Shown piece after piece: positions 9,982 to 64,000 of a DNA stretch of 64,000 nucleotides. The DNA comes from Armatimonadota bacterium (lineage in GTDB: Bacteria > Armatimonadota > HRBIN16). The notes beneath the pieces were generated by a model that did no database searches, was not told where the DNA came from, and was given only the letters and a program-made list of their open reading frames with translations. The translations under genes were made by a program, and so were the position numbers. The stretch's first letter is position 1. Each line of letters begins with the position of its first letter. Location: contig BPGT01000001.1 of NCBI GenBank assembly GCA_026003175.1, positions 596,839 to 660,838 of the forward strand, read 5' to 3'.

Positions 9982-9984
9982 CCT

Positions 9985-10338
9985 ATGCGACATCTGGTTG
10001 GTCATCGTAAACTGGGACTGCCCAGCGACCAGCGTCGTGCATTGCTGCACGGGCTGACGCAGCAGTTGTTTATTCATGAAGCCATTCGCACCACGGACAC
10101 GCGCGCCAAAGAGGTGCGTTCCATCGCCGAGAAGATTATCACGCTGGCTAAACGGAACGACCTGCATTCACGACGGCTGGCTCGGCGCATCCTCAGGTCC
10201 GAAAGCCTGGTCAAGCGGGTGTTTGACGAAATCGCCCCGCGCTACGCCAGCCGAAATGGCGGCTATACGCGCCTGGTGCGACTGGGTGCCCGTCGTGGCG
10301 ACGGCGCGATGCTGGTGTTGCTGGAGCTTATCCAGTGA
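9985..10338 (+). CDS. rplQ: 50S ribosomal protein L17
   Basis: This 117-residue protein lies around the exit tunnel. It begins MRHLVGHRKLGLPSDQRRALL and has ATDTRAKEVRS-like IRTTDTRAKEVRSIAEKIITLAK and the end YTRLVRLGARRGDGAMLVLLELIQ. It starts 3 bases after rpoA, as in the usual rpoA-rplQ pair. Confidence 0.97.
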   Translation: MRHLVGHRKLGLPSDQRRALLHGLTQQLFIHEAIRTTDTRAKEVRSIAEKIITLAKRNDLHSRRLARRILRSESLVKRVFDEIAPRYASRNGGYTRLVRLGARRGDGAMLVLLELIQ

Positions 10339-10347
10339 GAGCTCTGT

Positions 10348-11121
10348 ATGCGTACCATTGCCGTAGTCATCGAGTATGATGGCACGGACTTCGCAGGTTT
10401 TCAGGTACAGCGTGGCAAGCGCACCGTGCAGGCGGAGCTCTGCCGGGCAGTGCAGAAGATAACCAAAGAGTCGGTACCTGTTATCGGCGCAAGCCGAACA
10501 GATGCAGGCGCACACGCCACCGGGCAGGTGGTACACTTTCGCACCACATGTCGTATTCCGGTGGAGAGAGTGCCTGCGGCGTTGAACAGCGTGCTACCGC
10601 GAGACATCGCGGCGCGCCATGCGTGGGAAGCAGACGAAAGCTTCCACGCGCGATACAGTGCCCGCTCTCGGGTGTATCGCTATACAGTATGGAACCATCC
10701 GGTGCGCTCTGCCCTGATGGAGCGGTATGCCTATCGGGTAAGCCAGCCTCTGCATGTGGAGGCGATGAGGGAAGCGGCAAACTACCTTATAGGCAAGCAC
10801 GACTTCGCCGCTTTCGCCTCGGAGGTCGGGCGATATCGCAACACTGTACGCGAGGTGTACAGCGCGCAGCTACGAGCGCGTTTGCCACTGGTATGGTTGC
10901 GCATCGAAGCAAACGGCTTCCTGCAGGGCATGGTGCGTGCTATTATGGGCACGTTGATAGAGGTCGGGTTGGGCAAGCGTGCGCCCGAAACAGTGGGGCA
11001 ACTGTTGCAGAGGGGTGCAAGAGGTGAGGCGGGCTTTAACGTGCCGGCGCATGGATTGTGCCTGGTACGAGTGAACTACGACGAGAGCGCTATTTCGAGG
11101 AGCGAACAACAGGCGGGATAA
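10348..11121 (+). CDS. truA: tRNA pseudouridine synthase A (positions 38-40)
   Basis: The enzyme isomerises uridine in the anticodon arm of tRNAs. It has 257 residues. The catalytic Asp is Asp52 in [18 protein letters not shown]. Other landmarks are [12 protein letters not shown] near the start, [17 protein letters not shown] and the C-terminal [17 protein letters not shown]. It follows rplQ after 9 bases and overlaps nothing. The order rplQ-truA-rplM-rpsI is common. Confidence 0.96.
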
Positions 11122-11126
11122 GGGCT

Positions 11127-11564
11127 ATGACTATGAAAACCTATTCAACGAAGCCATCGGACATAAAGCGAGAGTGGTTCGTGGTGGATGCGACGAACAA
11201 ACCGCTGGGTCGCCTGGCGGCGGAGGTGGCGAAGATTTTGCGAGGCAAACACAAACCCATCTTCGCTCCACATCTGGACACAGGCGATTTTGTGATTGTG
11301 GTCAACGCCAGCAAGGTGAAGTTGACCGGTCACAAGGACGAGGAGCTTATCTACTGGCACACAATGTGGCCCGGCGGGTTGCGGTCGATATCGCGGGGCA
11401 AGCTTATTGCCGAAAAGCCGGAGCGGGCGATTCGCCGCGCGGTAAAGGGGATGTTACCGCATAATAAGCTCGGCGCGGCGATGATTCGCAAGCTGAAGGT
11501 GTACGCCGGTCCCGAACATCCCCACGAGGCACAACAGCCGAAGCCGCTGGAGATTAAGGTGTAG
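11127..11564 (+). CDS. rplM: 50S ribosomal protein L13
   Basis: This early-assembly large-subunit protein has 145 residues from the first plausible ATG (11127); a second ATG stands two codons later. It shows [28 protein letters not shown] (in parts), [33 protein letters not shown] and [24 protein letters not shown]. Because the upstream frame is open to 11058 inside truA, the start was set by the family N-terminus and by the position just after the truA stop. Confidence 0.96.
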
Positions 11565-47281: not shown

Positions 47282-47302
47282 GCCGAGAGAAGGGTGATAA
47301 CA

Positions 47303-50300
47303 ATGCGAGACCGACTGGTTTTCCTGATATGGCTGGGCATCCTAGCTGGTTGGCTGGGCATGGTTCGCACGGCGCAGGGTGACTCTTATACCTACACCGC
47401 TGTGCGCAAACAGATTCGCGTCGCCGTGTTGCAAATCGGCAATAATCCGGTGCTAACGCCCTTTGTGTGGCACGTGCTGGACCGGCGTACGGACTACAAA
47501 CCCGCCGGCTGGGACTTTGTGAACCCGCTGGCAGGCCCCGGCAGCCGGAAGAACATGGCGCCTTATTGGGTGGTAAGCCTGGATGCCATATCCATGGAAG
47601 ACCTGCGCAAGCTCGACGCGCTGGTCATCGCCACACAGGGTAGCAATATCGGCTTCACCCCGGAACAGCGCGAGAAACTGCGCAAGTTCGTGGACGCGGG
47701 TGGTTTGCTCTGGATAGATAACCAGACCGCTTACACGCTCGATACGCGTGCTCCGCTCTTTCTGGACCTACAGTTCAATAACGAAGGCTTGACCAACGGG
47801 CTGCTGGCATACCCGACCCATCCGCTGATGAATGCGCCCTATCCGATTAGCCGTGGCGAACTGAACCAGTTGGGGGCGGGCATTCGCGGCTCGTTGAGCG
47901 CGGTCGGGGCGGATTTGAATGCGCCTCCTGCGCCCGGCGTGCTGGCTCCGATTGTGGTGCGCCAGGATAATCGGCGCCCGGTGCTGGTAGCGGGGCAGTA
48001 CGGTAGCGGTGCGGTGGTGGTGTCTTCAATAGGAATCGCCTATGCCCTCAGCCATGCAGTCGCGCCGCCGGGGGTACCGGTAGCCAACGATAACTTCGCC
48101 GCTGCAGCACCACAGAACCTGAAGTTCGGCTACAACATGATACAGTGGGCGTCGGCATTTACCGCTCAGCGTAAAAACGCCCGGCGTACCGCGGGAACCT
48201 TCGAAAGCATCGGCGCGCCGCTGGTAGAAAAGTGGGGACTGACCGGACTGCAGGCGGTAGGGACCTTCGCCTCCTCCCCTGTGTTTTACAACGGCGCGTT
48301 GTTTGTGGTGGGTTCGTCGCCGCTGGGCGGGCTGCGCCTGTACTGCTTTGATGCCAACCCCCGCCGCGACATCGACGGAGACGGCAACGAGGACGACGGA
48401 CTGCCCGACCTGTGGCAGCGCGGAACACCCTACGATGAGATATGGGAAGCTCCGTTGGGAAGCGAACCCACCTCTACACCACAGGTTGTGGAGATATCTA
48501 CCAGCAGTAACGACCCCCTGCAGCGCGCGCTGGTAGTGCTCACACTGAAGAACGGCACCGTGCAGGCGTACCGCGCCTTCCCGCGCACCGGAGGCATCAA
48601 CTCGCCTATTGCCGGGTTGTCAGACGGCTCGAACCTTGTGTGGGAACGCTCTTTGCCCAACGCCGTGCCGTTCGACGGGGATACAATTCCCGTTTCCGCC
48701 TCTGCGGAAGGGTTGATCGTGGTTCCGGCGGTGCAGGCGGGTACTGGCGGCAACAACGGACGCCTGTACGTGCTGTGGGCAGCCACAGGGGATGTGATCA
48801 ACTCCGGCAGCTCAGGGCAGGACTGGATACAGCCCCGCACCAACCTGCCGCCGATTCGCGGTGGAGTGACGCTGGGCTATGTGCAGGATAGAGGACAGAC
48901 GGGCGAAGGCTCCATCGCCAGCGACCTGATGGCATACGTCTCCACCGCCCCTAGCTCCGCCACTGGTACACTCACCAGCTCGGTGTACGCCTTCTGGTTG
49001 GGCGCAAAGGGCGAGGTGCTCAGCAATCCGAACAACGACAAACGCACCTTCGTCACCCGGGCGCAGGGACGTCAGCTGCATATCTTCCTGGCGGACACCA
49101 GCAGCCCGTACGCCGCGCTAAACCCGGTGGTGTGGGTATACAACCGCGAGACGAACGGCTCGTTGACGCTGGTGGACCGCTACGACCTGCCCGACTCGCG
49201 CATCACCGTCAACGCAGGCACTATCGTGTTCTCCAGTCAGCCCGCTACGAACCCTGTAGTGGTGATGAACTACTTCATCGACTGGGGCAAGTCGCCCGGC
49301 ACGCCCATCCGCAGCACGGTGGGTATCGCGGACATCGTTCCCAACCCTACCAAGACCATCATGGACCAGCCTGCGCTGGACGCCAACGATAACGTGATTT
49401 ACACCACCGATAACGGCAGCGTGTACGCTATTCTGGAACAGCCGGGCAATCGAACCACTATGCGCTGGCGCTGGCAGCTGCACGGCGGCTACGTCGACCA
49501 GATTACCCCCCAGCAGTCGGTCAACGTGCCTCCGTCGTTGCAGATGAAGCATACGCTGTTCGGCACGCCGCTGCCCCCGGGTGCGTATATCGGCATCAAC
49601 CCGGTTGGGTTTTCCGCACCGCCCGCCGTGTTTGGCGACACCACCTACGCGGTAGCGGAGGCGCGGGCCGACTTTGGTCCCCCGGTCGGGGAGATACCCG
49701 GTACGGTGCTGATGGCTTTCAACAATAACCCACGGGTAGACCTGCGCCTGCGTGATGAAAACGGCAACCCTGTTGCTCTTCCGGGCAACGCCACCTTGCA
49801 GATTCGGCAGGTGGACGTGATACGCAGCGCGAGTGGCACCACACAATACACCTACGTGCAGCCGGCGCAGTATACAGTAAACCGTGCAGGCGGGATCATC
49901 AGCATCCACAACATGATGCCCAGCGCAGGGGGAGGTGGGGCAGTATTCGCCTTTAGCCTGTCGCAACCGACACTGGTGGTGGTCACCGCAGGTAGCGAAC
50001 CTCCGCGCCAGTACTACATCCAGCCCACCGAATACAGCAACCTGAAGTGGTTCATGTTCATTCCGGCGGTAAGGGTGAAAGCGTCGCCAGTGGTGGCGGG
50101 CGATGTGGTCTACCTATCAGCGGTGGTGGATGCGCCGGGCGTGCAGGTTGCTACGGTAATTGCGGTTTCGGCAGACCCTACCGCCACCGACCCCAGCATC
50201 CAGCAGGGTGACGATGTACCATTGCTCACGCAAGATTCGGACAAGCCGAATCACGTGCTGTGGCCTGCTCTGGGCAAGCCCGCTGACTATGGCTACGACC

Positions 50301-51847
50301 CGAACAATCCGGCGACATGGGCACCGTCGCTGATAAATCTGTTGAACGCCACCCTCAGCGAGCTGCGCCGGGCGCAGGTGGGCACGCAGGGTATTGCGGC
50401 GGTCGCGGCGTCTAACGGACTGCTGGCGGCGGTGGGCGACACGGGTATCAAGGTCTTCGAGCGACAGATGACGCTGATTGCGGATAGCCATCGGCTGCTG
50501 GAGATGGACCCGGGCGGCAAGGTAGCCTGGAGCATGGACGCCAGCAGGCTGTGGGGCGCTGCATCGGGAGGCTCTGCGCCGGTAGTAAGCATCGCTCCTA
50601 CCTCCGTCGCCCGCCCAGCGCGCGTGTATCGCACCGGCGCGAACGAGATGCTCGTGGTAGACACCGGCAACAACCGCATCGTTTGGGTGGATAAATCGGG
50701 CAACGTGGTGTCGGAGCTGCGTCGCTTCGAGAACCCGCCGCGCCTCAACCTGTCCGACCTGAGCAAACCGCCTGCACCTCTTGCCCCGGGCGACCCGCAC
50801 GAGCTGCGCGAGCCGCAGGACGTGAACATCTACACCGAATATGTGCCTAAACAGGATGCGGGCGGCAATCGGCTTAACCCGTTCGAGGATGCACAGGATC
50901 TGGAGTTCTGGGTGCACTATCTGATTGCTGACACAGGCAACGGACGGCTGATTGATGTGATAGACCGTTACGCTGCGGATACGAACACCGGTGCGGTAGG
51001 TCCCCTGATCGCCGCGCGACAGCTGTTCTGGACAAGCGCAGAGGGTGCGGAACGGCGCAAGTATCGCTATACAGGTGTCCAACGCATCGTATCCGGCTAC
51101 AGCGGCGGCGCACCGGTGTTTACGCTGGTGGCGACGGTGGCGAACTACCGCGTACGCCCCGACGGAACTGGTGAGGAGGGTGTCGGAGGCACGGTGATGG
51201 TACGCACCATCGGCGCAGGGCTGGACATCACCGAAGCGTTTAGTGAGGTGCTGTTGCCCAATGAGCCGCTGGGTTCGAACAACCGTGTGCCCATCGGTAG
51301 CCCCAACAGCGTGCAGGTCTATCCGGTACGCTACGACAGCGCCACAGGAAGCGTCGTGTACAATATCGTGCTGGCAACCGACAAGGGTGTGTTTGACCTC
51401 GAACGGCTCGCGCCCAACCAATGGCGCATCAAGTGGCGATTAACCGATGAGGTCTACCGCAGTCTAACCCACCTGCGCGACCGTATCCGGGGACCGCAGC
51501 CGGTGGATGTGTATATCAGTCGCGCCATCCCACTGTGGGCGGTGAGTGCGGTGCGACTACCCAACGGACACTATCTGATAGCGAACGCCTACCGAGGCAT
51601 GCTGCCCGATAGCAGCCGCTTCAGCGGTGAGGTGTTCGAGATAGACCCCAGTAATTACAACCCGGGCGCCACCCGCACCGAGACCGAAATAGACGGACCG
51701 CACACCTACCTGACCGACGGGATGCGCCCGGAAGACATCGTGTGGTGGACGCCCAGGCGGGTAAAAAGCTGGGCAAACATCAACGAGGTGGTCAGCAGCG
51801 ATTCATACCGGATCGATACGCCGTTCTACGCGGATAGACCGTTCTAG
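47303..51847 (+). CDS. Giant exported protein, GATase-like domain plus beta-propellers
   Basis: A 1514-residue protein with a signal peptide (RDRLVFLIWLGILAGWLGM). The N-terminal about 280 residues look like a DUF4159/GATase1-like domain: IRVAVLQIGNNPVLTPFVWHVLDRR, then LRKLDALVIATQGSNIGFTPEQREKLRKFVDAGG. A PQQ-like propeller covers about 300-800 (LFVVGSSPLGGLRLYCFDANPRRDIDGDGNED). NHL-like blades near 1095-1230 read ARVYRTGANEMLVVDTGNNRIVWVD and WVHYLIADTGNGRLID. It is probably surface-exposed. ATG at 47303 with AGAAGGG upstream was preferred to GTG at 47294. Function unknown. Confidence 0.75.
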   Translation: MRDRLVFLIWLGILAGWLGMVRTAQGDSYTYTAVRKQIRVAVLQIGNNPVLTPFVWHVLDRRTDYKPAGWDFVNPLAGPGSRKNMAPYWVVSLDAISMEDLRKLDALVIATQGSNIGFTPEQREKLRKFVDAGGLLWIDNQTAYTLDTRAPLFLDLQFNNEGLTNGLLAYPTHPLMNAPYPISRGELNQLGAGIRGSLSAVGADLNAPPAPGVLAPIVVRQDNRRPVLVAGQYGSGAVVVSSIGIAYALSHAVAPPGVPVANDNFAAAAPQNLKFGYNMIQWASAFTAQRKNARRTAGTFESIGAPLVEKWGLTGLQAVGTFASSPVFYNGALFVVGSSPLGGLRLYCFDANPRRDIDGDGNEDDGLPDLWQRGTPYDEIWEAPLGSEPTSTPQVVEISTSSNDPLQRALVVLTLKNGTVQAYRAFPRTGGINSPIAGLSDGSNLVWERSLPNAVPFDGDTIPVSASAEGLIVVPAVQAGTGGNNGRLYVLWAATGDVINSGSSGQDWIQPRTNLPPIRGGVTLGYVQDRGQTGEGSIASDLMAYVSTAPSSATGTLTSSVYAFWLGAKGEVLSNPNNDKRTFVTRAQGRQLHIFLADTSSPYAALNPVVWVYNRETNGSLTLVDRYDLPDSRITVNAGTIVFSSQPATNPVVVMNYFIDWGKSPGTPIRSTVGIADIVPNPTKTIMDQPALDANDNVIYTTDNGSVYAILEQPGNRTTMRWRWQLHGGYVDQITPQQSVNVPPSLQMKHTLFGTPLPPGAYIGINPVGFSAPPAVFGDTTYAVAEARADFGPPVGEIPGTVLMAFNNNPRVDLRLRDENGNPVALPGNATLQIRQVDVIRSASGTTQYTYVQPAQYTVNRAGGIISIHNMMPSAGGGGAVFAFSLSQPTLVVVTAGSEPPRQYYIQPTEYSNLKWFMFIPAVRVKASPVVAGDVVYLSAVVDAPGVQVATVIAVSADPTATDPSIQQGDDVPLLTQDSDKPNHVLWPALGKPADYGYDPNNPATWAPSLINLLNATLSELRRAQVGTQGIAAVAASNGLLAAVGDTGIKVFERQMTLIADSHRLLEMDPGGKVAWSMDASRLWGAASGGSAPVVSIAPTSVARPARVYRTGANEMLVVDTGNNRIVWVDKSGNVVSELRRFENPPRLNLSDLSKPPAPLAPGDPHELREPQDVNIYTEYVPKQDAGGNRLNPFEDAQDLEFWVHYLIADTGNGRLIDVIDRYAADTNTGAVGPLIAARQLFWTSAEGAERRKYRYTGVQRIVSGYSGGAPVFTLVATVANYRVRPDGTGEEGVGGTVMVRTIGAGLDITEAFSEVLLPNEPLGSNNRVPIGSPNSVQVYPVRYDSATGSVVYNIVLATDKGVFDLERLAPNQWRIKWRLTDEVYRSLTHLRDRIRGPQPVDVYISRAIPLWAVSAVRLPNGHYLIANAYRGMLPDSSRFSGEVFEIDPSNYNPGATRTETEIDGPHTYLTDGMRPEDIVWWTPRRVKSWANINEVVSSDSYRIDTPFYADRPF

Positions 51848-51997: not shown

Positions 51998-54900
51998 ATG
52001 GCAACAGCGAGAAACTGGTTAATAGCATGGGTAATCGGGAGCGTGCTGCTGATGCAGTGCGCGCTGCAGGCGGACGACTTTCCGATGTTCCGCCGCGACC
52101 CTCAGCGTACAGGGGCGACAAACCTGAGCACCGAACCCGGTCCGGGCAGGGCGTACCTGCGGTGGTGGTGGCCCGCTCAGCAAGACAGAGGCGTCACGCT
52201 GGAGATCGATCGTGACGGCGTCAACCGTGCGGGCGATTATGCGGTGATACAGGGCTCAGTAACTACCATCCAGATTACCGACCCCAACGCGGTGACCGAT
52301 GGCTTTCGTGATAGTTATGACTACGCCACGGCGGTCAACCCCAGTAATACGCAGGACCCCACCAGCGGCGCGACGGTAGTTGTGCGTTGGCGTAACGCCA
52401 CCCCGAACGAGCTAGACCCAAACGACTCTGCCTACAACCCGCTTGTTGCCAGACCCACTCGCTATCAAATCGCCGTATGGTTCCCTTCCAGCGGCACCCA
52501 GGGCAACCGCAACGTCCGGGAGGCGGTATATAAGGTGCGCTACCCCACCGGAACCAGTACCTACGGCGAGATTATCCTGATTGTGAACCAGACAACCGGC
52601 GGACAGTGGATACGCCTGGGGCGCGCTGGCAGTATCGCATATATCAGGAACCAGAGCGGGCAATGGGAACGCACCCAGCTGCAATCCGACCTCATGTTCC
52701 CCTTCGACGGTCGCCGTCCGGTGGAGGTGTACGCTTACAATACGTCTACCCATACTGACGAAGATGGCAATTTCGACGACGCCGGGCGGCTGGTGGTGTT
52801 CGACGGCGTGCGCTTTATGCCAGACCTGGGAGCGTTCTACTCCTCGCCCGTGGCGGCAACGATACAAGTAGCACCCGGACAGCTGGTACAGCGCGTGTTC
52901 ATCGGGCGAATCGAGCACGTCCCCGATGAGAACGACCCCACCGCTAGTGTGCAAATCGGCGTGATGTACTGCTTTGACAACGCGGGGCGCGTGGTGTGGC
53001 GATACCCGCTGAACGTTACGGGGCAGCGTGCGGTGACGGTAGATGACGCGGATGGTGCGCCCACTTTTCAAGCAGACCCCGCCTGGACGGTACCAGGTAC
53101 CTTGCAACCTGACCCGTTTGGCATGAGTTACGTGCAGGCTACCGTCGTGGGCACTACCGACCCCACTACATGGTCACGGGTGCGCTGGCAACCAGACCTT
53201 CAGCCGTCCAATGGTGCGGAAACTGCCCGATATACCATCTATGTCTGGCTACCGCAAGACGATGGCACGGTAAACCGCACCAGGGTCGCACGCTATATCG
53301 TGCATCATGAAGAGGGCAATACGGTGGTGGAGGTCGATCAGACGCAAAACACCGCAGGAGGGCAGTGGTTTAGCCTAGGCACCTACCTCATGCGGCAGGG
53401 TACGACCAACTACGTGGAGCTGGTGAACTACAGTCGCGTCGCCAGCGAAGTGACCGAAGGGCGCGTGGCGATTGCCGACGCGGCGCGATTTGTGGAGCAG
53501 GGCACCGGAGCCAGCGGTATCTTCTCCACGCCTGTTGTGGAAACGGTTCCCATGCGCCTGTCGGGTGGTAGCGTGGCCGACAGGCAGGTGGTCTTCTTCT
53601 CGGCAAACGATGGGAAAGTTTACGCGCTGGATGCGGTCGGCAACGGTGACGGCACCACCTTCTCGTACTGGGTGTGGCCTCAGGAGCCTCTGAATGAACG
53701 ACCTGTGGTTGGTTCGTTCGGGTACTCTTCGCCGGTGGTGGTCAACATCGGTACCAGTGGGACGCCCGACTGGCGACTGTACGTGGCAAACTCCAACGGA
53801 CGGGTGTACTGCCTGGACGCTTCCGGCAACGGTGATTTCAGCGCAAGCAACCCCGGCACAACTGACCGCATCTGGGTTTATCCGGCAGCGGACAAGGCAG
53901 CGGTGGTCAATGGCTTTGTCTCTTCGCCAGCGTACAACCGCACCGCAGGCGAAGGTCCCACTATCTTCGTTGGCGGTCTGGACGGAAGGTTGTACGCGCT
54001 GGACGCCGACGGCTCGGGAGGCACCACCACCGAGCGCTGGATTTACCCGGGCAAGTACGAACCTGCCTCCGGTAGCGACCCCGCTCTGCCTGAAGAACTG
54101 CCTCTGGATCCCATCTCCACCACACCTGCTGTGTTTGATGGTAAGGTGTACTTCGCGGCGGCGGATGGGCGCGTGTACTGCGTGAAAGAAAAGGGCACCG
54201 GACGTCGGCGCACCGAGCGCGTGTGGGTATGGCCCTACGCCCAGCGACCGCCGGTAAGCACCGTCGGCGACGAGGACCCTGTGGAACCGTTCCTGTACTC
54301 CTCGCCGGCGGTAGCAGCGCAGGTAAACACCATCACCGGGGTGCGCGATGTGGTGTTTATCGGCGACCGGGGAGGCACCGTGTACGCGCTGGACGCGCAG
54401 GGCACGGGCGACGGCAAAACGGTGTTGGTGTGGCAGGATGTGACTGACCCACTGAACCCCAAGCCATCGGGCAGTGGCTCGCTGGGGGCGGCGGTGTACT
54501 CATCTATCACCTTCACGCAGATTATCCCAAGCCGCTCCACTACAGGCACGCCTCCTGTACCAGCAGTAGTGTTCGGCTTGATGGACGGTAAAGTGCTTGC
54601 ACTCAACGCCTTCAACGGAGGTCCCGGCACCTTCCGGCAAGTGCTGGATAACAACAATAACCTGATTAACGTGCGCGGCGACGTGATATGGGGCTGGCAG
54701 ACGCTGGGCGAGCAGGTGTTCGCTTCGCCTGCCGTAGCCAACGACTGGATGTACATCGCGGGCGATGACGGCATCATCTATGCGTTCTCGCCTACCGGTG
54801 GCTACCTTACACCAGGCGAACCACCAGGTGCAGAGCTGGTGGACGTTGCGCTCAGCCCGAACCTGGCGAACCTGCAGGTAGAAGTGTTTACCGCGCAGGA

Positions 54901-57900
54901 GTACGCCGACATTGTGCAGCGGCGCACCCGCACCCCAGAGGAAGTCGTGTCTGGTGGGCATACGCGCAAAATCGGCTACGAGTGGGGCGATACGGTGTAC
55001 GTGATTGCCTACGGCATGCAGGGGCTGGTGCCTCCTGCGCGTTCGGTCACGCTGACTCTGCGCAGCCGCGCAGCTACAGTCAACCGTACCGTTGGCGTCG
55101 TGCCTTACGGCACGGATGTAGGTGTAAACCAGAAATGGATGGCGTACCACGCCTTCCGTATCACCCCCTCGCAGGACGGCGATGCCTGGACGCCCGGTGC
55201 ACGCTACACCGCTGCAGTGCGAGTGACCTCCACAACCACCAGCGGCGGGGGCCAACAGACAGCTACGATGACGCTGGAGCGTACCCCAGACCCGTACTTC
55301 GAGTTCACCATCGCCCATCCGCTGGCGCTGCGCCTCCTGAACCCGGATGGCACAGTGAACCCGAGCCTGGAGGTGGGCTGGATCGGGCAAACGGTAGTTG
55401 GCGGTTCGGTGCCCCAGGAGCTGAGCATGAACGGTAACGCGGGCAAGTTTCTGCAGCTGGAGATGGGGTTGGTGCCCCACGGCGCCAGTAGTGCGCGACT
55501 CATCCAGATTGCCGACCGTTCGAAGGTGGCTTTGCTGGGCGGTGACCCATTGCGGGTGAAGGTACAGCGAGCGAACGTCGCATGGCACAATAATGACGAC
55601 GGCTCGCTGGCGGTGATCAACCCGCTACCGTGGGATGAACTGCCCCTGAATATCCCGAACACCAGCGTGGATTATCCCGACATTCCTGAACGTGCCGTGA
55701 GGGTATCCGCTGGCGGTGTGGACCTGTACGCCTCCTCGCGGGGTGGTGCGCTGGCAGCTCCAACCGACCCGGTGGGCGTTGCGCCCGACTGGACAAGCTG
55801 GACGCTGGTGCCCACTGTCGGCGAGACCAGTGTGCAGGTTCCGCAGTTCCAGCCGGCGAACCTCGTGGGGTTCGACGGACAGAATCCGTTTACCGCACGC
55901 GGTTACGCTACCCGCATCCGCAGACCGATTCGCGTCTATGTGGATGTGAACAACAACGGTCAGCTGGACCTGCCTGGCGGTCCGGGGCTACGCCAGACGC
56001 CTCCTGCTACACGCGAGGAGCCGTATCGAGAGTTCCGCATCACCATGGGCGTACCGCCCGATATGCGTCTGCGGGTAGAGGAGGAAACGGTAGATATCGG
56101 TGCGGTGCCACATGGCTTCGGCGTCCATCCCGACCTGACGACGCACGCCTTCCGACCGCCGATATCGGATAGCGACCCCACATACCTGAACGACCCATGG
56201 TACCGGGCGCTGAAGCCGTTCTGGAAGCCGTTCACGGTGCGCAGCCTCAGCAACGTCAACCTGCTCAACGTACGCGCGGTTGGTTCGGTGGACTATCTGG
56301 ACGCAGGCGGCAACCCGCTGTTCCAGAACCCGTTGCCCGTTACCCTGATGAGCGACCAGGTGAGCCCGTACTACTGGGAGGTTAATCCCATCGGCGACCC
56401 CACCTTCACCTTCCACAAGCCCGCGCTGACCGCAGGCTGGGTGCGCCGACCGGATGGCAGCATGGTGCAACAGAACGTGTTCACCTCGCTGGACCTGATT
56501 TACGACCCGATATGGTTGACGTTCCGTCCGCCGCTATATAACGGCTTCCCGGGTATGCACACGTTGCACAAGCCACGCCCGGATAGTAGCCCAACGGTAC
56601 TGTCCATCCCCGACAAGCCCTATCCGGGCGCGGCTGGTGGTGCGTTCGACAACGTGCAGACCGCCAAGCCGCTGGTCAGCGTGCAGGTTCCGCTTGGCAC
56701 GCCAGCGGGAACCTATAGCAACTATATCCGCATCTTCGAGGCAGCGTCGTGGAACCCGTATGTGCTGGGTATCCTGGCGAACAACGAACCGGCACAGCCC
56801 GTCAGTGAACCCACGATGCGCGTGAAGGTAACGGTCACCGAATCGCGCCTGACCAACAGCTGGGCGAGCGGCTCCCTGCCTCAGCTGGACACCGTATGGC
56901 AGGGTACGCCGCCGCAACCCGGACAGCCAGGCTACCTGGCAGCGAACGTACAGCCCGCCGCGCTGATGTTGCCGGATAGTCTGTTGCTGGCATGGAGCAG
57001 TAACTGGAGCCGAAACCGCGTGACCGAAGACGGAACCGACAGCTATCGCGAGACGCAACCTTCTGGTAGCAACGCCTGGTTCCTGCATGTGGCGGTGCTG
57101 CCGCGTGATACACAGCGCGGCGTGTGGACGCCTGCTTCACCCAACCAGTGGTGGAGCGGACGCAGCGTGGAGTACCCGCGCGACCCGACGAACAGCTCCG
57201 TGCGCGACAAGTACGGCAGGTTGTTCACCACCCAGCCGGGCACGGTGATACCGTCCTCCATCAAACACTATTCGCCCACCTTCTTCGTCGTGGGCGGACA
57301 AACCTACCTGCTCTGGCAGGGGCAGGCGGCAAAGAGGCAGAATACAGGCGTGGTGCTCACGGAGAACGTCACCTTTGTCGCACCTGTGGCAAATGGTGTG
57401 CCAGGAACCCCTGTCGCGCTGGGCAACGATGTCTGGCTACCGCGCTTCCAGCCTCGTGTGGTGGTAGTGGGCAATACGCCGGTGATGTTCTGGTATAGTG
57501 GCGCCAGCGGACGCTACACTATCTATTACAACGCCTGCCTAGGCAACCCGCTGAACCCCAGCGCATGGACGCGCGACCAGCAGTTGCCTGTGCCCGCTGT
57601 GGTGACCAACGCCTTTGAACCATTGGCGATCCCGCGCCAGGGTGCTATCGACGTCATCTACACAGCGTCCACCAAGACCAGGCAGACCAACGAGCTGATA
57701 CTCACCCGCTTTACGCTGGGCGGTGGAGGCAGACTGGTTCCGATGAACCTGCCACCGGTGCGGGGCGAGGTGCTGCAGCGCATCGGAACCACCAATGTAT
57801 GGATGTCGCGCGACCTGTCGTGGAACCGCAATCAGCGCATCCGTATCTGGCGTGTGGGCGACCCGCATCCGCTGGCAGCCAACGATATCCAGCAATCAGG

Positions 57901-58819
57901 CGACCCGGCAGTATACTGGTACGACCAGCGTTACGACTCGAACACGGGCATCCTGTACCTCACCCGCTACACCGACAGCGCACGCACGCAAATCGACTGG
58001 CAGGCGGTGATTGACCTGTCGGCGGGCACGGTGACGTTCCCGTATCGCGCGCCCTCGCGCACCGATGTGGTGTTCGCAGACTACACGCCGCGCGCCATGC
58101 GGCTGACCGCCAATCACGGCTGGAACTCGCTCGTGCCGAACGATGGCGTGCCGGTTCCGCAGCCCATCGCCTTTTACGCTGGCGCAAACAGCGCACCCAC
58201 CGGCGGACTGGAGAAGTCGCAGAACCCGCGCTGGAAGTACATTCTGCCCGCGTTGAATAACCCCACGCAGTCGCCTCCGGTAGACCGGTTGTGGCTGTTC
58301 TATCGCAAGTCCACCGGTTCTACGCCGACGGAGGTGTTCGTGGTGAAGACCATGCGCCTGGGGGTGCAACTGCCTGCGCCCGTCTTCACCCCGGTTATCA
58401 CCGATGGGCAGGGCGAGCGTCGCCCCGATGTGTCGGGCGTGACGGTAACAGGCATCAGCGCACCTATTGGTCCGGTAGAGGTGGACTTTGCGCGAGGGCG
58501 GATCTACTTCACCGAGGCGGATGAAGGCAAACTGGTCAGCATCACCTACACCGCCCTCGATGCGCAGGGCAACCCGGAGGCATCGCCTCGCACGATAGTG
58601 GGTGTGGTGCGCTGGATAGACGAAACCTCCGAAGCCACCGAAGGTTCGCAGGCAATGGTGCCGCTGGTTGGCGCCACCAGCGAAAGCGGGCTGTTCGCGC
58701 TGAAGGACGAGTTTGAACCGAAGGTGTGGCTGTTCTGGAGCAGCACACGCGCCGGTACCAGTGACCTGTTCTTCCAGACATTCAGTCCGAGGCTTTATCC
58801 TGATGTAATCGTTCCATAA
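51998..58819 (+). CDS. Giant exported protein with golvesin-like domains and PQQ propeller
   Basis: A 2273-residue protein with a signal peptide (RNWLIAWVIGSVLLMQCALQA). The start of the mature chain, FPMFRRDPQRTGATNLS, is the usual beginning of a PQQ-like propeller. Two golvesin-like carbohydrate-binding domains follow: about 145-280 (QIAVWFPSSGTQ, VNQTTGGQWIRLG, GRLVVFDGVRF) and about 410-505 (YTIYVWLPQDDG, NTAGGQWFSLGTYLM, GRVAIADAARF). Propeller blades at about 515-935 read VFFSANDGKVYALDAVGNGDG and similar. The rest, about 1300 residues, is beta-rich with no family I can name. Probably a surface protein that binds glycans. ATG preceded by GGGAGTGAG. Confidence 0.75.
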   Translation: MATARNWLIAWVIGSVLLMQCALQADDFPMFRRDPQRTGATNLSTEPGPGRAYLRWWWPAQQDRGVTLEIDRDGVNRAGDYAVIQGSVTTIQITDPNAVTDGFRDSYDYATAVNPSNTQDPTSGATVVVRWRNATPNELDPNDSAYNPLVARPTRYQIAVWFPSSGTQGNRNVREAVYKVRYPTGTSTYGEIILIVNQTTGGQWIRLGRAGSIAYIRNQSGQWERTQLQSDLMFPFDGRRPVEVYAYNTSTHTDEDGNFDDAGRLVVFDGVRFMPDLGAFYSSPVAATIQVAPGQLVQRVFIGRIEHVPDENDPTASVQIGVMYCFDNAGRVVWRYPLNVTGQRAVTVDDADGAPTFQADPAWTVPGTLQPDPFGMSYVQATVVGTTDPTTWSRVRWQPDLQPSNGAETARYTIYVWLPQDDGTVNRTRVARYIVHHEEGNTVVEVDQTQNTAGGQWFSLGTYLMRQGTTNYVELVNYSRVASEVTEGRVAIADAARFVEQGTGASGIFSTPVVETVPMRLSGGSVADRQVVFFSANDGKVYALDAVGNGDGTTFSYWVWPQEPLNERPVVGSFGYSSPVVVNIGTSGTPDWRLYVANSNGRVYCLDASGNGDFSASNPGTTDRIWVYPAADKAAVVNGFVSSPAYNRTAGEGPTIFVGGLDGRLYALDADGSGGTTTERWIYPGKYEPASGSDPALPEELPLDPISTTPAVFDGKVYFAAADGRVYCVKEKGTGRRRTERVWVWPYAQRPPVSTVGDEDPVEPFLYSSPAVAAQVNTITGVRDVVFIGDRGGTVYALDAQGTGDGKTVLVWQDVTDPLNPKPSGSGSLGAAVYSSITFTQIIPSRSTTGTPPVPAVVFGLMDGKVLALNAFNGGPGTFRQVLDNNNNLINVRGDVIWGWQTLGEQVFASPAVANDWMYIAGDDGIIYAFSPTGGYLTPGEPPGAELVDVALSPNLANLQVEVFTAQEYADIVQRRTRTPEEVVSGGHTRKIGYEWGDTVYVIAYGMQGLVPPARSVTLTLRSRAATVNRTVGVVPYGTDVGVNQKWMAYHAFRITPSQDGDAWTPGARYTAAVRVTSTTTSGGGQQTATMTLERTPDPYFEFTIAHPLALRLLNPDGTVNPSLEVGWIGQTVVGGSVPQELSMNGNAGKFLQLEMGLVPHGASSARLIQIADRSKVALLGGDPLRVKVQRANVAWHNNDDGSLAVINPLPWDELPLNIPNTSVDYPDIPERAVRVSAGGVDLYASSRGGALAAPTDPVGVAPDWTSWTLVPTVGETSVQVPQFQPANLVGFDGQNPFTARGYATRIRRPIRVYVDVNNNGQLDLPGGPGLRQTPPATREEPYREFRITMGVPPDMRLRVEEETVDIGAVPHGFGVHPDLTTHAFRPPISDSDPTYLNDPWYRALKPFWKPFTVRSLSNVNLLNVRAVGSVDYLDAGGNPLFQNPLPVTLMSDQVSPYYWEVNPIGDPTFTFHKPALTAGWVRRPDGSMVQQNVFTSLDLIYDPIWLTFRPPLYNGFPGMHTLHKPRPDSSPTVLSIPDKPYPGAAGGAFDNVQTAKPLVSVQVPLGTPAGTYSNYIRIFEAASWNPYVLGILANNEPAQPVSEPTMRVKVTVTESRLTNSWASGSLPQLDTVWQGTPPQPGQPGYLAANVQPAALMLPDSLLLAWSSNWSRNRVTEDGTDSYRETQPSGSNAWFLHVAVLPRDTQRGVWTPASPNQWWSGRSVEYPRDPTNSSVRDKYGRLFTTQPGTVIPSSIKHYSPTFFVVGGQTYLLWQGQAAKRQNTGVVLTENVTFVAPVANGVPGTPVALGNDVWLPRFQPRVVVVGNTPVMFWYSGASGRYTIYYNACLGNPLNPSAWTRDQQLPVPAVVTNAFEPLAIPRQGAIDVIYTASTKTRQTNELILTRFTLGGGGRLVPMNLPPVRGEVLQRIGTTNVWMSRDLSWNRNQRIRIWRVGDPHPLAANDIQQSGDPAVYWYDQRYDSNTGILYLTRYTDSARTQIDWQAVIDLSAGTVTFPYRAPSRTDVVFADYTPRAMRLTANHGWNSLVPNDGVPVPQPIAFYAGANSAPTGGLEKSQNPRWKYILPALNNPTQSPPVDRLWLFYRKSTGSTPTEVFVVKTMRLGVQLPAPVFTPVITDGQGERRPDVSGVTVTGISAPIGPVEVDFARGRIYFTEADEGKLVSITYTALDAQGNPEASPRTIVGVVRWIDETSEATEGSQAMVPLVGATSESGLFALKDEFEPKVWLFWSSTRAGTSDLFFQTFSPRLYPDVIVP

Positions 58820-58829
58820 GGGATATTGC

Positions 58830-58878
58830 TCTCACCCTCAGCCCCTCTCCCAGAGGTTTGGGAGAGGGGTTGTTGTTT
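58830..58878. terminator. REP-like inverted repeat acting as terminator
   Basis: CCCCTCTCCCA (58842-58852) pairs with TGGGAGAGGGG (58859-58869) across a 6-base loop, followed by TTGTTGTTT. It belongs to the CTCACCCTCAGCCCCTCTCCC type of repeat seen in many bacterial genomes. It ends the 2273-residue gene and may also end transcripts from the right. Confidence 0.8.
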
Positions 58879-59048: not shown

Positions 59049-59993
59049 ATGCTTGATGTCCTCGATTTATTCGCGGGCGCTGGCGGGCTATCCACAGGGT
59101 TCAGAAAAGCTGGTTTTAGAGTTACTGGCGTAGACATTGAGCCAGCTACCAAGCAGATATTCGATATTAACGACATCGGCACTGCATTGCAGGCTAATCT
59201 GGCGAGGGAACCCGTCTGTGCATCTTTCGAAAATATCCCTGTAATCACTGGAGGGCCTCCATGCCGTCCGTGGTCGAGTCTCAATATAACTCGTCGCGGT
59301 GACAAACACCCGGACAGCGGGTTGCTGGATTTATTTTTTGAGCATGTTCTGGCGATTCGCCCGGAGATTTTCTTTATGGAAAATGTTCCTCTCTTGCGGA
59401 ACGACGAGAGGTACCGTTGTGCTATTGAGGACATGCGCAAGAACGGGTATACGGTCGACAGTGAGGTGGTTTGTTACAGTAATTTCGGTGCTCCCGTAGC
59501 AAGGCATCGCCTGTTCACCGTAGGCATACGACGATCTGTATCAGGAGCAACCGATTTCTTCCTGCGCCTCAAAATGAACCAGAAGGAGCCAGAAACTGTA
59601 GGATCGGCAATAAGATGGCTGAGGGATTTTCAGCGCAGCGAGTATCCAGACCACGTCTGGCCACAGCTTAAAACTATCGAGCGTTATGAGAAGTACTACA
59701 GAACGGGCAAGTACGGCTGGTACCGGCTGGATTATGAAAAGCCCGCCCCTTCGTTCGGAAATGTTATGAAGACCTATATTCTGCATCCAGAGGCAGGACA
59801 AAATGGCTTCCCATTACGTGTAATATCTGTGCGTGAAGCCCTGTGTATCATGGGTTTTGACCGGCAGTTTCAACTGCCAGAAGGTCTTGCAATGTCCAAA
59901 AAATACCAGATGGTTGCAGATGCTGTCAGCCCTCTGGTATCATTTGCTTGTGCACGAATCATTCGGGACATGCTGGAGCGTGATGGTTCTTGA
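59049..59993 (+). CDS. DNA (cytosine-5) methyltransferase, DISARM drmMII-like
   Basis: A 314-residue enzyme that would transfer a methyl group from SAM to cytosine C5. Motif I is DLFAGAGGLSTGF at 6-18. The catalytic Cys72 is in GGPPCRPWS (motif IV). The ENV motif is at 111-113 (FFMENVP). Motif VIII is GAPVARHRLF, with Val in place of the usual Gln. Motif X is VADAVSPLVSFA. The target-recognition region (about 160-270) is small, so specificity cannot be read. The frame is open back to 58953, but ATG at 59049 behind GAGGTTGGAAAG gives the family start. Codon use and GC differ from the pilus genes. It overlaps the glycosylase by 4 bases. Confidence 0.9.
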   Translation: MLDVLDLFAGAGGLSTGFRKAGFRVTGVDIEPATKQIFDINDIGTALQANLAREPVCASFENIPVITGGPPCRPWSSLNITRRGDKHPDSGLLDLFFEHVLAIRPEIFFMENVPLLRNDERYRCAIEDMRKNGYTVDSEVVCYSNFGAPVARHRLFTVGIRRSVSGATDFFLRLKMNQKEPETVGSAIRWLRDFQRSEYPDHVWPQLKTIERYEKYYRTGKYGWYRLDYEKPAPSFGNVMKTYILHPEAGQNGFPLRVISVREALCIMGFDRQFQLPEGLAMSKKYQMVADAVSPLVSFACARIIRDMLERDGS

Positions 59994-60721
59994 GTGCAGA
60001 AAGGCAGAAAGCAGGATGGCATCTCCCTGCGGAATTCGACGTCGTTGCCTTTCGCTGCGACCTGCTCGGATGGTGGAAGGATAACCAGCGAGTTTTTCCG
60101 TGGCGGGAGACTCGCGACCCTTATAGAATACTTATTGCTGAAATCCTGCTGCATAGAACTCGTGCAGAACAGGTGGTTCCTCTGTATCATCGCGTTCTGC
60201 GCAGGTTTCCGAATGTATTCAATCTGGCTGCTGCAGACTACCAGGAGATTGAGAATGAGCTTCGGTCGGCGGGGCTAACCTGGAGAATCCAGTTGTTGCA
60301 CGAGATGGCAAGGCAAGTTGTGGAAAAACACAACGGCGTGTTGCCACAAGACAGTATACAGTTACAATCACTGCCTGGCATAAGCCATTATATTGCCTCA
60401 GCGGTGCGGTGTTTTGCATGGGGGTACCCTGAGGCTCTCCTTGATACGAACACCGTCAGGATTGCTGGAAGATTGTTCGGTCTGAGGATTACCGATGGTT
60501 CAAGACGGAGCAGGCTGTTTCAGAATGTGCTGACACAACTTCTGGATAGAGAATGTCCCAGAGATTTCAACTTTGCGCTCATCGACCTGGGAGCAACCGT
60601 GTGTAGAAGTCGCAATCCGGTGTGCTTATCATGTCCCGTTCGGATACACTGTTCTTATGGTCGAAATGTGATATCAACACAGGAGGAACACAGCGATCAT
60701 GCGCGAGATGTTTGTCACTGA
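59990..60721 (+). CDS. HhH-GPD DNA glycosylase, Mig-like thymine/G-mismatch type
   Basis: A 243-residue base-excision repair enzyme. The N-terminal FPWRETRDPYRILIAEILLHRT resembles Mig of Methanothermobacter as I remember it (FPWR..RDPY.ILI.EILL.RT). The HhH motif is LPGISHYIASAV with Tyr134, and the catalytic Asp is Asp152 in LLDTNTVRI, 18 residues later. In Mig the same Tyr/Asp pair is used, whereas MutY has Ser and Nth has Lys there. Four cysteines form the [4Fe-4S] ligands (C-x6-C-x2-C-x5-C, residues 205-221). The start is TTG overlapping the methyltransferase stop as TTGA. It probably excises T opposite G formed when 5-methylcytosine deaminates. Confidence 0.85.
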   Translation: MSAERQKAGWHLPAEFDVVAFRCDLLGWWKDNQRVFPWRETRDPYRILIAEILLHRTRAEQVVPLYHRVLRRFPNVFNLAAADYQEIENELRSAGLTWRIQLLHEMARQVVEKHNGVLPQDSIQLQSLPGISHYIASAVRCFAWGYPEALLDTNTVRIAGRLFGLRITDGSRRSRLFQNVLTQLLDRECPRDFNFALIDLGATVCRSRNPVCLSCPVRIHCSYGRNVISTQEEHSDHARDVCH

Positions 60722-63700
60722 GCTGGTGAAGGATGTACTTGGCCCGCGTGGTGGCAGGTGCGAAACCCTGCCTCAGAGTCCTCTGAGCGAGTATATCACC
60801 GGAGTTCTGACTCCACGGGAGGAGCCTGAGCGCGATATTGACGCGACGGCTGATTTACCTGCTGAAGGGTATACAGGAGAAGCAGAGGACGAATCGATGG
60901 ATACAGACATCCTTTCACCTCTTCTTCTCTCGCCTGTGCTTGACCCGCAAAGCCGTCCGCACTCTATTGGTCTGTCTTTCACTGTTGAATCGGATGGTGT
61001 CCCTGAGATTGAAGTGTGTATCACCTGGGCACGTTACTTTCTGTACAGAAAGGATAGTCCGGACAAACAGGGCAAAGAGTGGAAAAGAAAACCCCGTTTC
61101 AGCATTCAGCGCATCCAGTGTCAGGCTCAACCTCAGGAGCTGTGGATTGATGAACAGGGAAACCTGTGCAATGACGGGTGTGCTGAAATCTCGCTGTACG
61201 TGCGCTGCAAGCAGATGAAAGACAGCACATCTGTCATCATGCTGTACCTCATAAACAGAATGCGCGTTCAAAACAAAGAGGACGTGCAGGACGAGGAGAA
61301 AAAGCAGTTCTTTACAGAATGCTGTGTTTTTCAGCCTCAGATACGAGTCAAATGTTTGTCAGGAACACGAATAGTTCCTCGTATCACATCTCTTTCCTCT
61401 GACGAGGAGGAGCAGCGGCTTCATTTTCTGTATCGAGATTATCCTGTTCTTGCCAGAGGATACCTGTGTTCTGCTGTGTGGAAAGAAATTGACCCGGAAG
61501 TGAAGGTGGAAAACCCTGATCTGGATTTCCCCGACGCACAGAAACAGCCGCCATTTTACTGGGTTGATGGAGAGCTTCTGCCGGAGGATGACCGCCGGCG
61601 TTTCTCACCGCCCGATGTCAGAACAGAGTTTGTTCCGCTCTACCCTGTGCAGGCACCGCTCCTCGAGTGGCGTGGCGAGTATGGTCCGGCTCCAGAAACC
61701 AGAGCAGACAACCTCGCGGAACTGTGGGAACCACAGCAGATAGAAGAGGGGCTTCAACCTCTGGTTGACGGATACAGGAAATGGATCTGCAGACTCCGTG
61801 ATGAGGCAAACTCTCTGCAGCCCGACGAGAGAAGAATTGCAGACAATCTGTTAGACGAATGTGATCGGGTTGCAGAAAGGATTCAGAAGGGTATTGATCT
61901 TCTTCGAAACGACGACGATGTCCGGCTCTCTTTCTGCTTTGCAATGAAGGCGATGGCTGTACAGGCGGGGTGGCCGAAAGGGAGCGGCAGGAAGGCGCTG
62001 GAGTGGCATCCGTTTCAGCTCGCATTTATCCTGATGTGTCTGGATTCGGTTGCCAATCCCGAATCACATGATCGTGAAGTATGCGACCTGTTGTGGGTAC
62101 CCACTGGAGCCGGTAAAACGGAGGCGTATCTCGCGCTGGCTGCTTTCACCATGGCTTACCGCAGGCGCAGAGCACTGAAGCGGGAGAAAGGTGACAGGAC
62201 GGGCGCAGGTGTCGCCGTTATTTCGCGGTATACCCTTCGTCTGTTAACCATCCAGCAATTCCGTCGTACCCTCAAAATGGTGACAGCCTGTGAATACCTC
62301 AGGGTATATGGTCTGGGCAAAAACAAATCCGTCGGCTGGCGACCAGAAAAGTGCAGCAGTATGACTGATAACTTCATCTGGGGTTCTTCCCGCTTCAGTG
62401 CAGGATTATGGGTGGGAGGTGGTGTTACCCCCAACCGTCTACTCAAAACATGGGGAGGCGGCCGAGACATTTACGGAGCTGTTGAGATATTAACTGGCAA
62501 AAAAGGAGAAGGAGAGCCGGCGCAGGTTTTGAACTGTCCAGCCTGTAACACTCTGCTGGCGTTTTCCGAACTTCCAGAAGGTGAACACATACTCTACTAT
62601 GTTGTTAGCAAGCTGCCGTCCGATCCGCAAAGCCGGTCACTGCCTCAGCAGAGTACTTTTCAGGCAACCATTCGAGAGGTGCATATCCTGTCTTCGGGTT
62701 TTAAGACACTGGAGGTTCATCTCTCATGTGAACAAAAAGTGACCGCGGACGAGGTCGATAGATGGTGGAAAGAGGAAGTGGAAAAGTGGCTCGGCCAGTC
62801 AGGAGGCAGTGGAGCCTTTGCACGTGCATCACGCCCTGGCTACTTCGTACGCAGCTACGACAAAAAAAGTGGGAATTTAGAATGCTATGACTTTGACATC
62901 TACTGTCCCAACCCGAATTGCCCGCTTCACATACCCTGGGTTGAGGGATCTCCCATGGGAGATTATCAGGCCTACCAGAATACGAATGTACGGCTCTGGA
63001 AACTTCCTGATGGTAATCGGAACATCTACCCGCAAGACCCCTTCAGGCGCGAATCGTCTTGCTATTCCGATAGAGTACCCATCCCTGCTTACACTGTAGA
63101 TGAGCAGGTGTATCATCGCTGTCCTTCCATCGTGATAGCAACTGTGGACAAATTCGCTCGACTCGCTTTCGAGCCCCGTGCGTCGGCGCTATTTGGCAAT
63201 GTGAGCCATTATCACTGCATCCGGGGTTATTATCGTCCCTGCGCTCATTCTGAAGGCAATAGAGAGCACCCGTCTCCTGTCGGCACCAAAAATGCACGTA
63301 ACTATATTTCCATCCCGCCACCTGACCCCCCGGACCTCATTCTGCAGGATGAGCTTCATCTCATTGAGGGACCGCTGGGAGGACTGGTGGGCATTTATGA
63401 GACTGCGGTGGACTTTCTTTGTTCTGGAACAGGGAATCATTCGCCGAAGTATATTGCCTCCACAGCCACAATCAGGCGAGCACAGGAGCAGGTCCGTTCT
63501 CTTTTCAGCCGCACACTGCAGATTTTTCCTCCGCCGGGGCTGAGGGTGGATGATAGCTTCTTCATCCACTTCACACGAGGGCATCCGCTTCGAGATAAAA
63601 ACCCGGGACGTCTCTACGTCGGCATCTGTGCGCCCGGCAGAGGACCACTGACGCCTGTTGTGCGCATCTGGGCGCGTTTGCTGCATACAGCTCAATGTTT

Positions 63701-64000
63701 ACTTCACGATACAAACCAGTCCAGAGTAGACCCATTCTGGACATTGACCGGATACTTCAACGCAATTCGCGAACTGGGTGGTGCCCGCGCTCTGTACCGG
63801 CAGGACATACCCCAGCGTTTGCAGGACATAGCGAACATGGAGAGAAGGGAGCCGAGACAAGTAGACGATACGAAAGTTCAGGAGCTCTCCAGCCGCACTC
63901 CGTCCGGTCATCTACCGGCAGTACTTGAAGCACTGGAAAGGCAGTGCCCTGATGCACCAGAGGCACTGTTTACCACTTCAATGTTTGGCACCGGTGTCGA
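60699..64000 (+). CDS. drmA: DISARM helicase DrmA-like protein, 5' part (open at the right edge)
   Basis: From ATG 60699 the frame stays open to the window end: 1100 codons, no stop. AGGAGG is 12 bases upstream, and the start overlaps the glycosylase by 23 bases. The beginning MREMFVTELVKDVLGPRGG and SPLSEYITGVLTPREEP is of the DrmA type. The helicase core has Walker A PTGAGKT at 468-474, an inserted Cys region (NCPACN and CPNPNC), the DEAH-like DELH at 884-887 in LQDELHLIEGPLGGLVGIYE, and motif III-like STATI at 921-925. The end SMFGTGV precedes the missing motifs V and VI. DISARM class 2 has drmA, drmB, drmC, drmE and a cytosine methylase. The partners drmB and drmC would lie to the right, outside the window. 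Confidence 0.82.
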   Translation, partial: MREMFVTELVKDVLGPRGGRCETLPQSPLSEYITGVLTPREEPERDIDATADLPAEGYTGEAEDESMDTDILSPLLLSPVLDPQSRPHSIGLSFTVESDGVPEIEVCITWARYFLYRKDSPDKQGKEWKRKPRFSIQRIQCQAQPQELWIDEQGNLCNDGCAEISLYVRCKQMKDSTSVIMLYLINRMRVQNKEDVQDEEKKQFFTECCVFQPQIRVKCLSGTRIVPRITSLSSDEEEQRLHFLYRDYPVLARGYLCSAVWKEIDPEVKVENPDLDFPDAQKQPPFYWVDGELLPEDDRRRFSPPDVRTEFVPLYPVQAPLLEWRGEYGPAPETRADNLAELWEPQQIEEGLQPLVDGYRKWICRLRDEANSLQPDERRIADNLLDECDRVAERIQKGIDLLRNDDDVRLSFCFAMKAMAVQAGWPKGSGRKALEWHPFQLAFILMCLDSVANPESHDREVCDLLWVPTGAGKTEAYLALAAFTMAYRRRRALKREKGDRTGAGVAVISRYTLRLLTIQQFRRTLKMVTACEYLRVYGLGKNKSVGWRPEKCSSMTDNFIWGSSRFSAGLWVGGGVTPNRLLKTWGGGRDIYGAVEILTGKKGEGEPAQVLNCPACNTLLAFSELPEGEHILYYVVSKLPSDPQSRSLPQQSTFQATIREVHILSSGFKTLEVHLSCEQKVTADEVDRWWKEEVEKWLGQSGGSGAFARASRPGYFVRSYDKKSGNLECYDFDIYCPNPNCPLHIPWVEGSPMGDYQAYQNTNVRLWKLPDGNRNIYPQDPFRRESSCYSDRVPIPAYTVDEQVYHRCPSIVIATVDKFARLAFEPRASALFGNVSHYHCIRGYYRPCAHSEGNREHPSPVGTKNARNYISIPPPDPPDLILQDELHLIEGPLGGLVGIYETAVDFLCSGTGNHSPKYIASTATIRRAQEQVRSLFSRTLQIFPPPGLRVDDSFFIHFTRGHPLRDKNPGRLYVGICAPGRGPLTPVVRIWARLLHTAQCLLHDTNQSRVDPFWTLTGYFNAIRELGGARALYRQDIPQRLQDIANMERREPRQVDDTKVQELSSRTPSGHLPAVLEALERQCPDAPEALFTTSMFGTGV

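Follow-up and report, generated by a model that had tools for sequence, protein, structure and literature searches.

A predicted Mig-type DNA glycosylase as a probable accessory of a DISARM operon in Armatimonadota

Class 2 DISARM consists of drmMII, drmA, drmB, drmC and drmE. Deamination of 5-methylcytosine yields thymine and thereby a T:G mismatch, which is a substrate of both Mig and Vsr. In Vsr/Dcm very-short-patch repair, the repair gene overlaps that of a C5 methylase and its product acts against such deamination, while on the Methanothermobacter plasmid pFV1 the characterised mig gene lies near M.MthTI/R.MthTI. DrmAB has been found by cryo-EM work to favour 5′ single-stranded overhangs, its ATPase activity being lowered by 5-methylcytosine DNA (PMC9142583). 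Restriction glycosylases are also known, namely the R.PabI family of base-excision restriction enzymes (PMC10273834). Here we describe a DISARM locus that shares with class 2 a C5 methylase, DrmA, DrmB and DrmC, as judged by family profiles, and differs from it in having no drmE in the cassette and an extra glycosylase gene between the methylase gene and drmA.

The DISARM cassette and its genomic site

The window, by which we mean the whole 64,000-nucleotide stretch analysed (G000:C1:596839-660838 of a 4.1 Mb genome), ends inside a cassette of five genes on one strand, encoding a DrmMII methylase, an HhH-GPD glycosylase, DrmA, DrmB and DrmC. A terminator-like hairpin (58839..58872, + strand; L002:678-711), with a 15-pair stem including 9 GC pairs and a T-rich tail, lies between the upstream beta-propeller gene and the cassette. 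The C5-cytosine DNA methylase (59049..59993, + strand; 314 aa) retains its PPC and ENV motifs; a longer ORF from 58953 exists, and the gene of a congener begins at the same Met as the 59049 start. The iron-sulphur HhH-GPD glycosylase, putatively of Mig type (59990..60721, + strand; 243 aa, HhH-GPD profile), has a TTG start that overlaps the methylase stop (TTGA). The DrmA helicase gene (1313 aa in all) runs on the + strand from 60699 to the window end at 64000 and on to 64640 in coordinates extended past it. The methylase-glycosylase-helicase order and the overlaps of 4 and 23 bases given in the initial annotation are thereby confirmed exactly. Past the window end, drmB (extended 64653-66425, L002:6492-8264, + strand; 590 aa) begins 12 bases after drmA, and the ATG of drmC (extended 66422-66916, L002:8261-8755, + strand; ORF open from 8207) overlaps the drmB stop. 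Housekeeping scpA and scpB and a D-Ala-D-Ala carboxypeptidase gene follow 3′ of drmC.

DrmA matched NCBIfam NF038326 (DISARM_DrmAL) at 1619.5 bits (cut-off 999) and the PADLOC DrmA model at 1620 bits. The motifs PTGAGKT and STATI, noticed at the outset, were located at residues 468 and 921, with DELH at 884 and the motif VI sequence QSTGR at 1122. DrmB, which contains an MZB domain, matched its PADLOC model at 1.3e-214 and NF038324 at 464.6 bits (cut-off 240). DrmC was identified by PADLOC (5.4e-46) and PLDc_2 (7.7e-18); it fell under the cut-off of NCBIfam NF038319, a model of which the first matched position is 73, the N-terminal part, about 70 residues, being absent. DrmMII matched PADLOC PDLC02655 (3e-107) and Pfam PF00145 (6.9e-37), and the helicase, HKD (HAKVVIAD) and methylase motifs are all intact. 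Both genes expected to the right of position 64000, an MZB/DUF1998 drmB and a PLD-type drmC, were found directly there. The helicase was placed in DrmA, and a Druantia or plain DUF1998 helicase was ruled out, with DUF1998 not fused but carried by the separate gene adjoining drmA and with Druantia helicases missing from the 13 families that gave matches. Judged by these core genes, the cassette is DISARM, and its methylase, like that of class 2, is of the C5 type. Neither drmE nor drmD was found in the cassette, which holds only the five genes between the beta-propeller gene and scpA, and since drmE is absent it is not canonical class 2; the comparison with class 2 made at the outset holds for the methylase, drmA, drmB and drmC and fails for drmE. 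DrmC is short elsewhere in this DISARM branch too (L002:8207-8755 and other DrmAL loci), and the four-helix-bundle N-terminal part described by others seems to be absent.

The content of the site varies among congeners. In G187 the cassette is absent, and about 180 bp separate the beta-propeller gene from scpA, each of them 93% identical; G184 has the same five genes in this position; and in G180, G181 and G186 the position is occupied by approximately 2.3-2.6 kb of different sequence containing two ORFs. Of these last three genomes G181 was scanned, and its two ORFs gave matches to models of type II methylases and restriction enzymes. Within the genus, the site is a hot spot for defence genes. 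The window glycosylase is 83% identical to the G184 copy with a dN/dS of 0.23, similar to that of DrmA (0.21), and it is a real gene under purifying selection. Two giant genes neighbour the cassette, at window positions 47294-51847 (1517 aa) and 51998-58819 (2273 aa); the latter, with Golvesin_C and beta-propeller matches, forms the conserved left border of the hot spot. A further pair of methylase and type II restriction enzyme genes (L003:2238-5321, − strand; PADLOC MTase_II 1.3e-22, REase_II 1.5e-47), distinct from the DISARM cassette, lies some 16-19 kb beyond the end of the window.

Family and pocket residues of the glycosylase

The glycosylase matched Pfam PF00730 (1e-9) and contains the catalytic Asp (Asp152) and the four FeS Cys residues. 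Its similarity to MutY (4.8e-43) and to the thymine-DNA glycosylase Mig (1kea; 7.6e-36) is accompanied by a sole PADLOC match, to a model of 221 positions labelled ‘Type II nicking endonuclease’, at the same coordinates as Mig 1kea. The predicted structure (pLDDT 89.5) adopts the MutY/Mig fold, and a fold search with this model did not tell Mig and MutY apart. As a counterpoint to assignment as Mig, MutY is an equally close match in overall sequence and in fold.

In E. coli MutY, V45 and Q182 are adenine determinants of the pocket, with A50 and L187 as their Mig counterparts, and L22F, Q25R and S120Y have been named as additional changes in the direction of a pocket for thymine (PMC2714593). 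In E. coli MutY numbering, the window glycosylase agrees with Mig at F22, R25, R42, A45, L82 and Y120, and has Phe at position 182, where most MutYs have Gln. Four of the five residues of the Mig thymine-pocket set (F27, R30, A50, Y126 and L187) are identical in the window protein, L187 being replaced by Phe. Across the 12 glycosylases found in DISARM loci (see below), residue 182 is never Gln (mostly Tyr, otherwise Phe, or Leu in one), residue 82 is Leu and residue 42 is Arg. A GLxWR motif with an invariant Trp occurs in all 12, and LHRT and an aromatic residue 182 in most, forming a signature of the group. Five Chloroflexota members keep the MutY residue V45, and Tyr120 and Arg25 are found in several MutYs too. 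The group resembles Mig.MthI of pFV1 in being short HhH-GPD FeS glycosylases without the MutY C-terminal domain, encoded near a C5 methylase and sharing most pocket residues. It differs in overall sequence (32% identity), in the residue at Mig Leu187, in the Trp of GLxWR and in its partner, which is DISARM and not a type II endonuclease.

These residues bear on whether the protein is a shortened MutY paralogue that performs general A:G / A:8-oxoG repair and lies in the operon by chance. MutY is the best match in sequence and fold, and the protein scores 174 bits against TIGR01084 (MutY), but this is under the 286.5-bit cut-off and the C-terminal 8-oxoG domain is missing. Moreover, Gln182, Tyr82 and Gln42 are replaced in 12/12 DISARM members, a separate full-length MutY-type gene is present in the genome, and the gene order recurs across phyla. 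We consider such a paralogue very doubtful. MutY identity as such was rejected on the TIGR01084 score, the length of 243 aa, the lack of the C-terminal domain and the combination of Ala45 with Phe182. A housekeeping glycosylase was likewise rejected, because MutY and Nth are both encoded elsewhere in the genome. In phylogenetic trees, the DISARM glycosylases form one clade apart from MutY (support 97/89 with 10 rows and 94/88 with 12 rows). In the best tree this clade joins MutY weakly (63/65), and its grouping with the Mig-like set was not rejected (p-AU 0.37).

Distribution among DISARM loci

A DrmA-alignment scan of genome contigs yielded 20 loci and, with those from whole-genome searches, 27 distinct DrmAL loci were read. 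The glycosylase is present in 12 of them (the window, G184, L044, L046, L047, L051, L052/L039, L058, L062, L097, L132 and L135), and 11 of these 12 genes lie directly before drmA. In those 11 the methylase precedes the glycosylase wherever the contig reaches (that of L051 stops short), and the trio, for which a search of other genomes had been proposed, recurs in the same order. The order of all five genes is likewise repeated in distant bacteria and archaea. The glycosylase-bearing loci come from Armatimonadota, Chloroflexota and two archaea that belong to a single phylum; L047, titled Proteobacteria, is counted with the Chloroflexota set from which it was drawn, and the archaeal L058 carries mevalonate-pathway and proteasome-like genes.

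The remaining locus, that of Chthonomonas (L039/L052), has the methylase-glycosylase pair on the strand opposite drmABC, with the 4-nt overlap kept. The glycosylase travels with the methylase, as seen in this pair, and five loci from four lineages show 4-nt overlaps between the two genes, with TTG, GTG or ATG as the start codon. The methylases of the DISARM loci fall into four PADLOC DrmMII groups. The L047 methylase shares about 30% identity with its counterparts in the other Chloroflexota, whereas the glycosylase of this locus groups with the glycosylases of those Chloroflexota; the methylase appears to have been swapped and the glycosylase retained, which we infer to fit an enzyme that reads a mismatch, not a motif. 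The methylases of L044, L062, L097 and L048 have SPECT.HS as motif IV instead of the usual PPCQ..S.

In the Chloroflexota genome G303, a Vsr gene (PF03852, 3.6e-19) overlaps the methylase gene in the slot of the glycosylase. Vsr is an endonuclease of different fold and chemistry, and no convincing Vsr match was detected in the other related DrmAL loci. Neither enzyme was found nearby in 14 of the 27 loci, three of which (L045, L048 and L133) lie too near a contig end for a full judgement; these loci are mainly cyanobacterial and from Streptomyces, and most have a C5 methylase. Since about half of the related loci have neither, DISARM does not depend on this function. Mapped on the DrmA tree, glycosylase presence needs four gains or losses. 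Thermophily was rejected as a driver of retention, as IVYWREL growth-temperature estimates did not separate the loci, those of Cyanobacteria and Streptomyces being as warm as the rest. A different accessory set was observed in some DrmAL loci, in which drmA is preceded by a gene for a GHKL-like ATPase, and a gene for a PbeA/type IV-like protein converges on the drm genes (L052:1343-3547 and 9714-11456; L054, L055), with a helicase-like gene belonging to this set in L053 and L059.

This distribution also bears on two roles other than repair. As a direct defence effector, the glycosylase would remove uracil, modified bases or those at unmethylated sites from phage DNA, and the abasic sites would feed DrmAB/DrmC. 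The overlap with drmA in most loci and the DISARM-specific clade with its own signature agree with this, as do the restriction-glycosylase precedent of the R.PabI family (PMC10273834) and the cutting of U:G by Mig (PMC2714593). However, the Chthonomonas glycosylase goes with the methylase and not with drmA, Vsr takes its place in G303, and half of the related systems lack it. PabI-family enzymes are likewise DNA glycosylases that lie next to methylases in defence settings, but they are of an unrelated fold and family, and attack on unmethylated DNA is not indicated here. We regard a direct effector as unlikely, and a variant of this reading as quite improbable, namely a dedicated effector or sensor that would make abasic sites in incoming DNA at uracil, at deaminated or modified bases or at unprotected sites, to serve as DrmAB/DrmC entry points, and so make this branch a base-excision restriction system. 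Alternatively, the glycosylase could guard the methylase gene, in that loss of methylation would let the repair enzyme damage the genome and so stabilise the operon. Such stabilisation was proposed for ScmA and VsrA of Caulobacter, in which deletion of the methylase gave a Vsr-dependent SOS response (PMC12907096), and the overlap and co-retention seen here are in keeping with it. Mig-type enzymes, however, act on mismatches and not on unmethylated sites; a guarding role seems remote, although it could coexist with T:G repair.

Proposed role and related gene pairs

We consider it probable that the locus represents a complete DISARM operon to which a Mig-type mismatch glycosylase belongs as a conserved accessory, and that this enzyme would repair T:G mismatches arising by deamination of the 5-methylcytosine made by DrmMII. 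Three observations favour this repair role: the recurring methylase link, the pocket residues and the presence of Vsr in its place in one relative. In the proposed scheme, DrmMII would mark host DNA with 5-methylcytosine, DrmAB would load on DNA with single-stranded 5′ ends, less so if methylated, and DrmC would be the likely nuclease. T:G mismatches would arise at exactly the sites marked by DrmMII; the glycosylase would excise the T and base-excision repair would restore C:G, sparing the host C-to-T mutations and keeping its self-marking sites. Both the action on T:G and the restriction of phage by the operon are inferred from sequence.

No paper naming a glycosylase was found in the DISARM and drmA literature searched, the original DISARM description being outside that search, in agreement with the initial view that the enzyme is not a standard member. 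The further suggestion of an undescribed DISARM variant holds for the glycosylase and not for the operon. The L097 methylase matches PADLOC DrmMII PDLC02654 along its full length of 322 residues with 783.6 bits and is almost certainly in the training set of that model; the operon would therefore already be known as DISARM, with at least one such locus behind a PADLOC DrmMII model and only the glycosylase unremarked. The glycosylase appears to be a conserved component of this DISARM branch that has gone unlisted, and it is an addition to DISARM annotation. The findings suggest that a phage defence marking self with 5-methylcytosine also carries a repair enzyme for the mutational cost of the mark, and that this repair slot can be filled by two unrelated enzymes, a Mig-type glycosylase or Vsr. 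They raise the testable question of whether the cost of 5-methylcytosine self-marking shapes which defence operons persist.

Outside DISARM, Mig-similar enzymes lie beside C5 methylases on a Thermus plasmid and several haloarchaeal plasmids; near a match on a Gloeothece plasmid (42% identity), no methylase is annotated. Enzymes of this kind may also include some of the plasmid-encoded glycosylases that lie next to a C5 methylase and are labelled MutY or hypothetical. On three haloarchaeal plasmids (L067:10034-12353, L099:7974-10291 and L103:6851-8612), a Mig-like glycosylase annotated as ‘hypothetical protein’ is encoded beside a C5 methylase, in a recurring cassette that includes DUF6339 genes throughout and, in two cases, an ATP-binding protein and an SprT-like gene.
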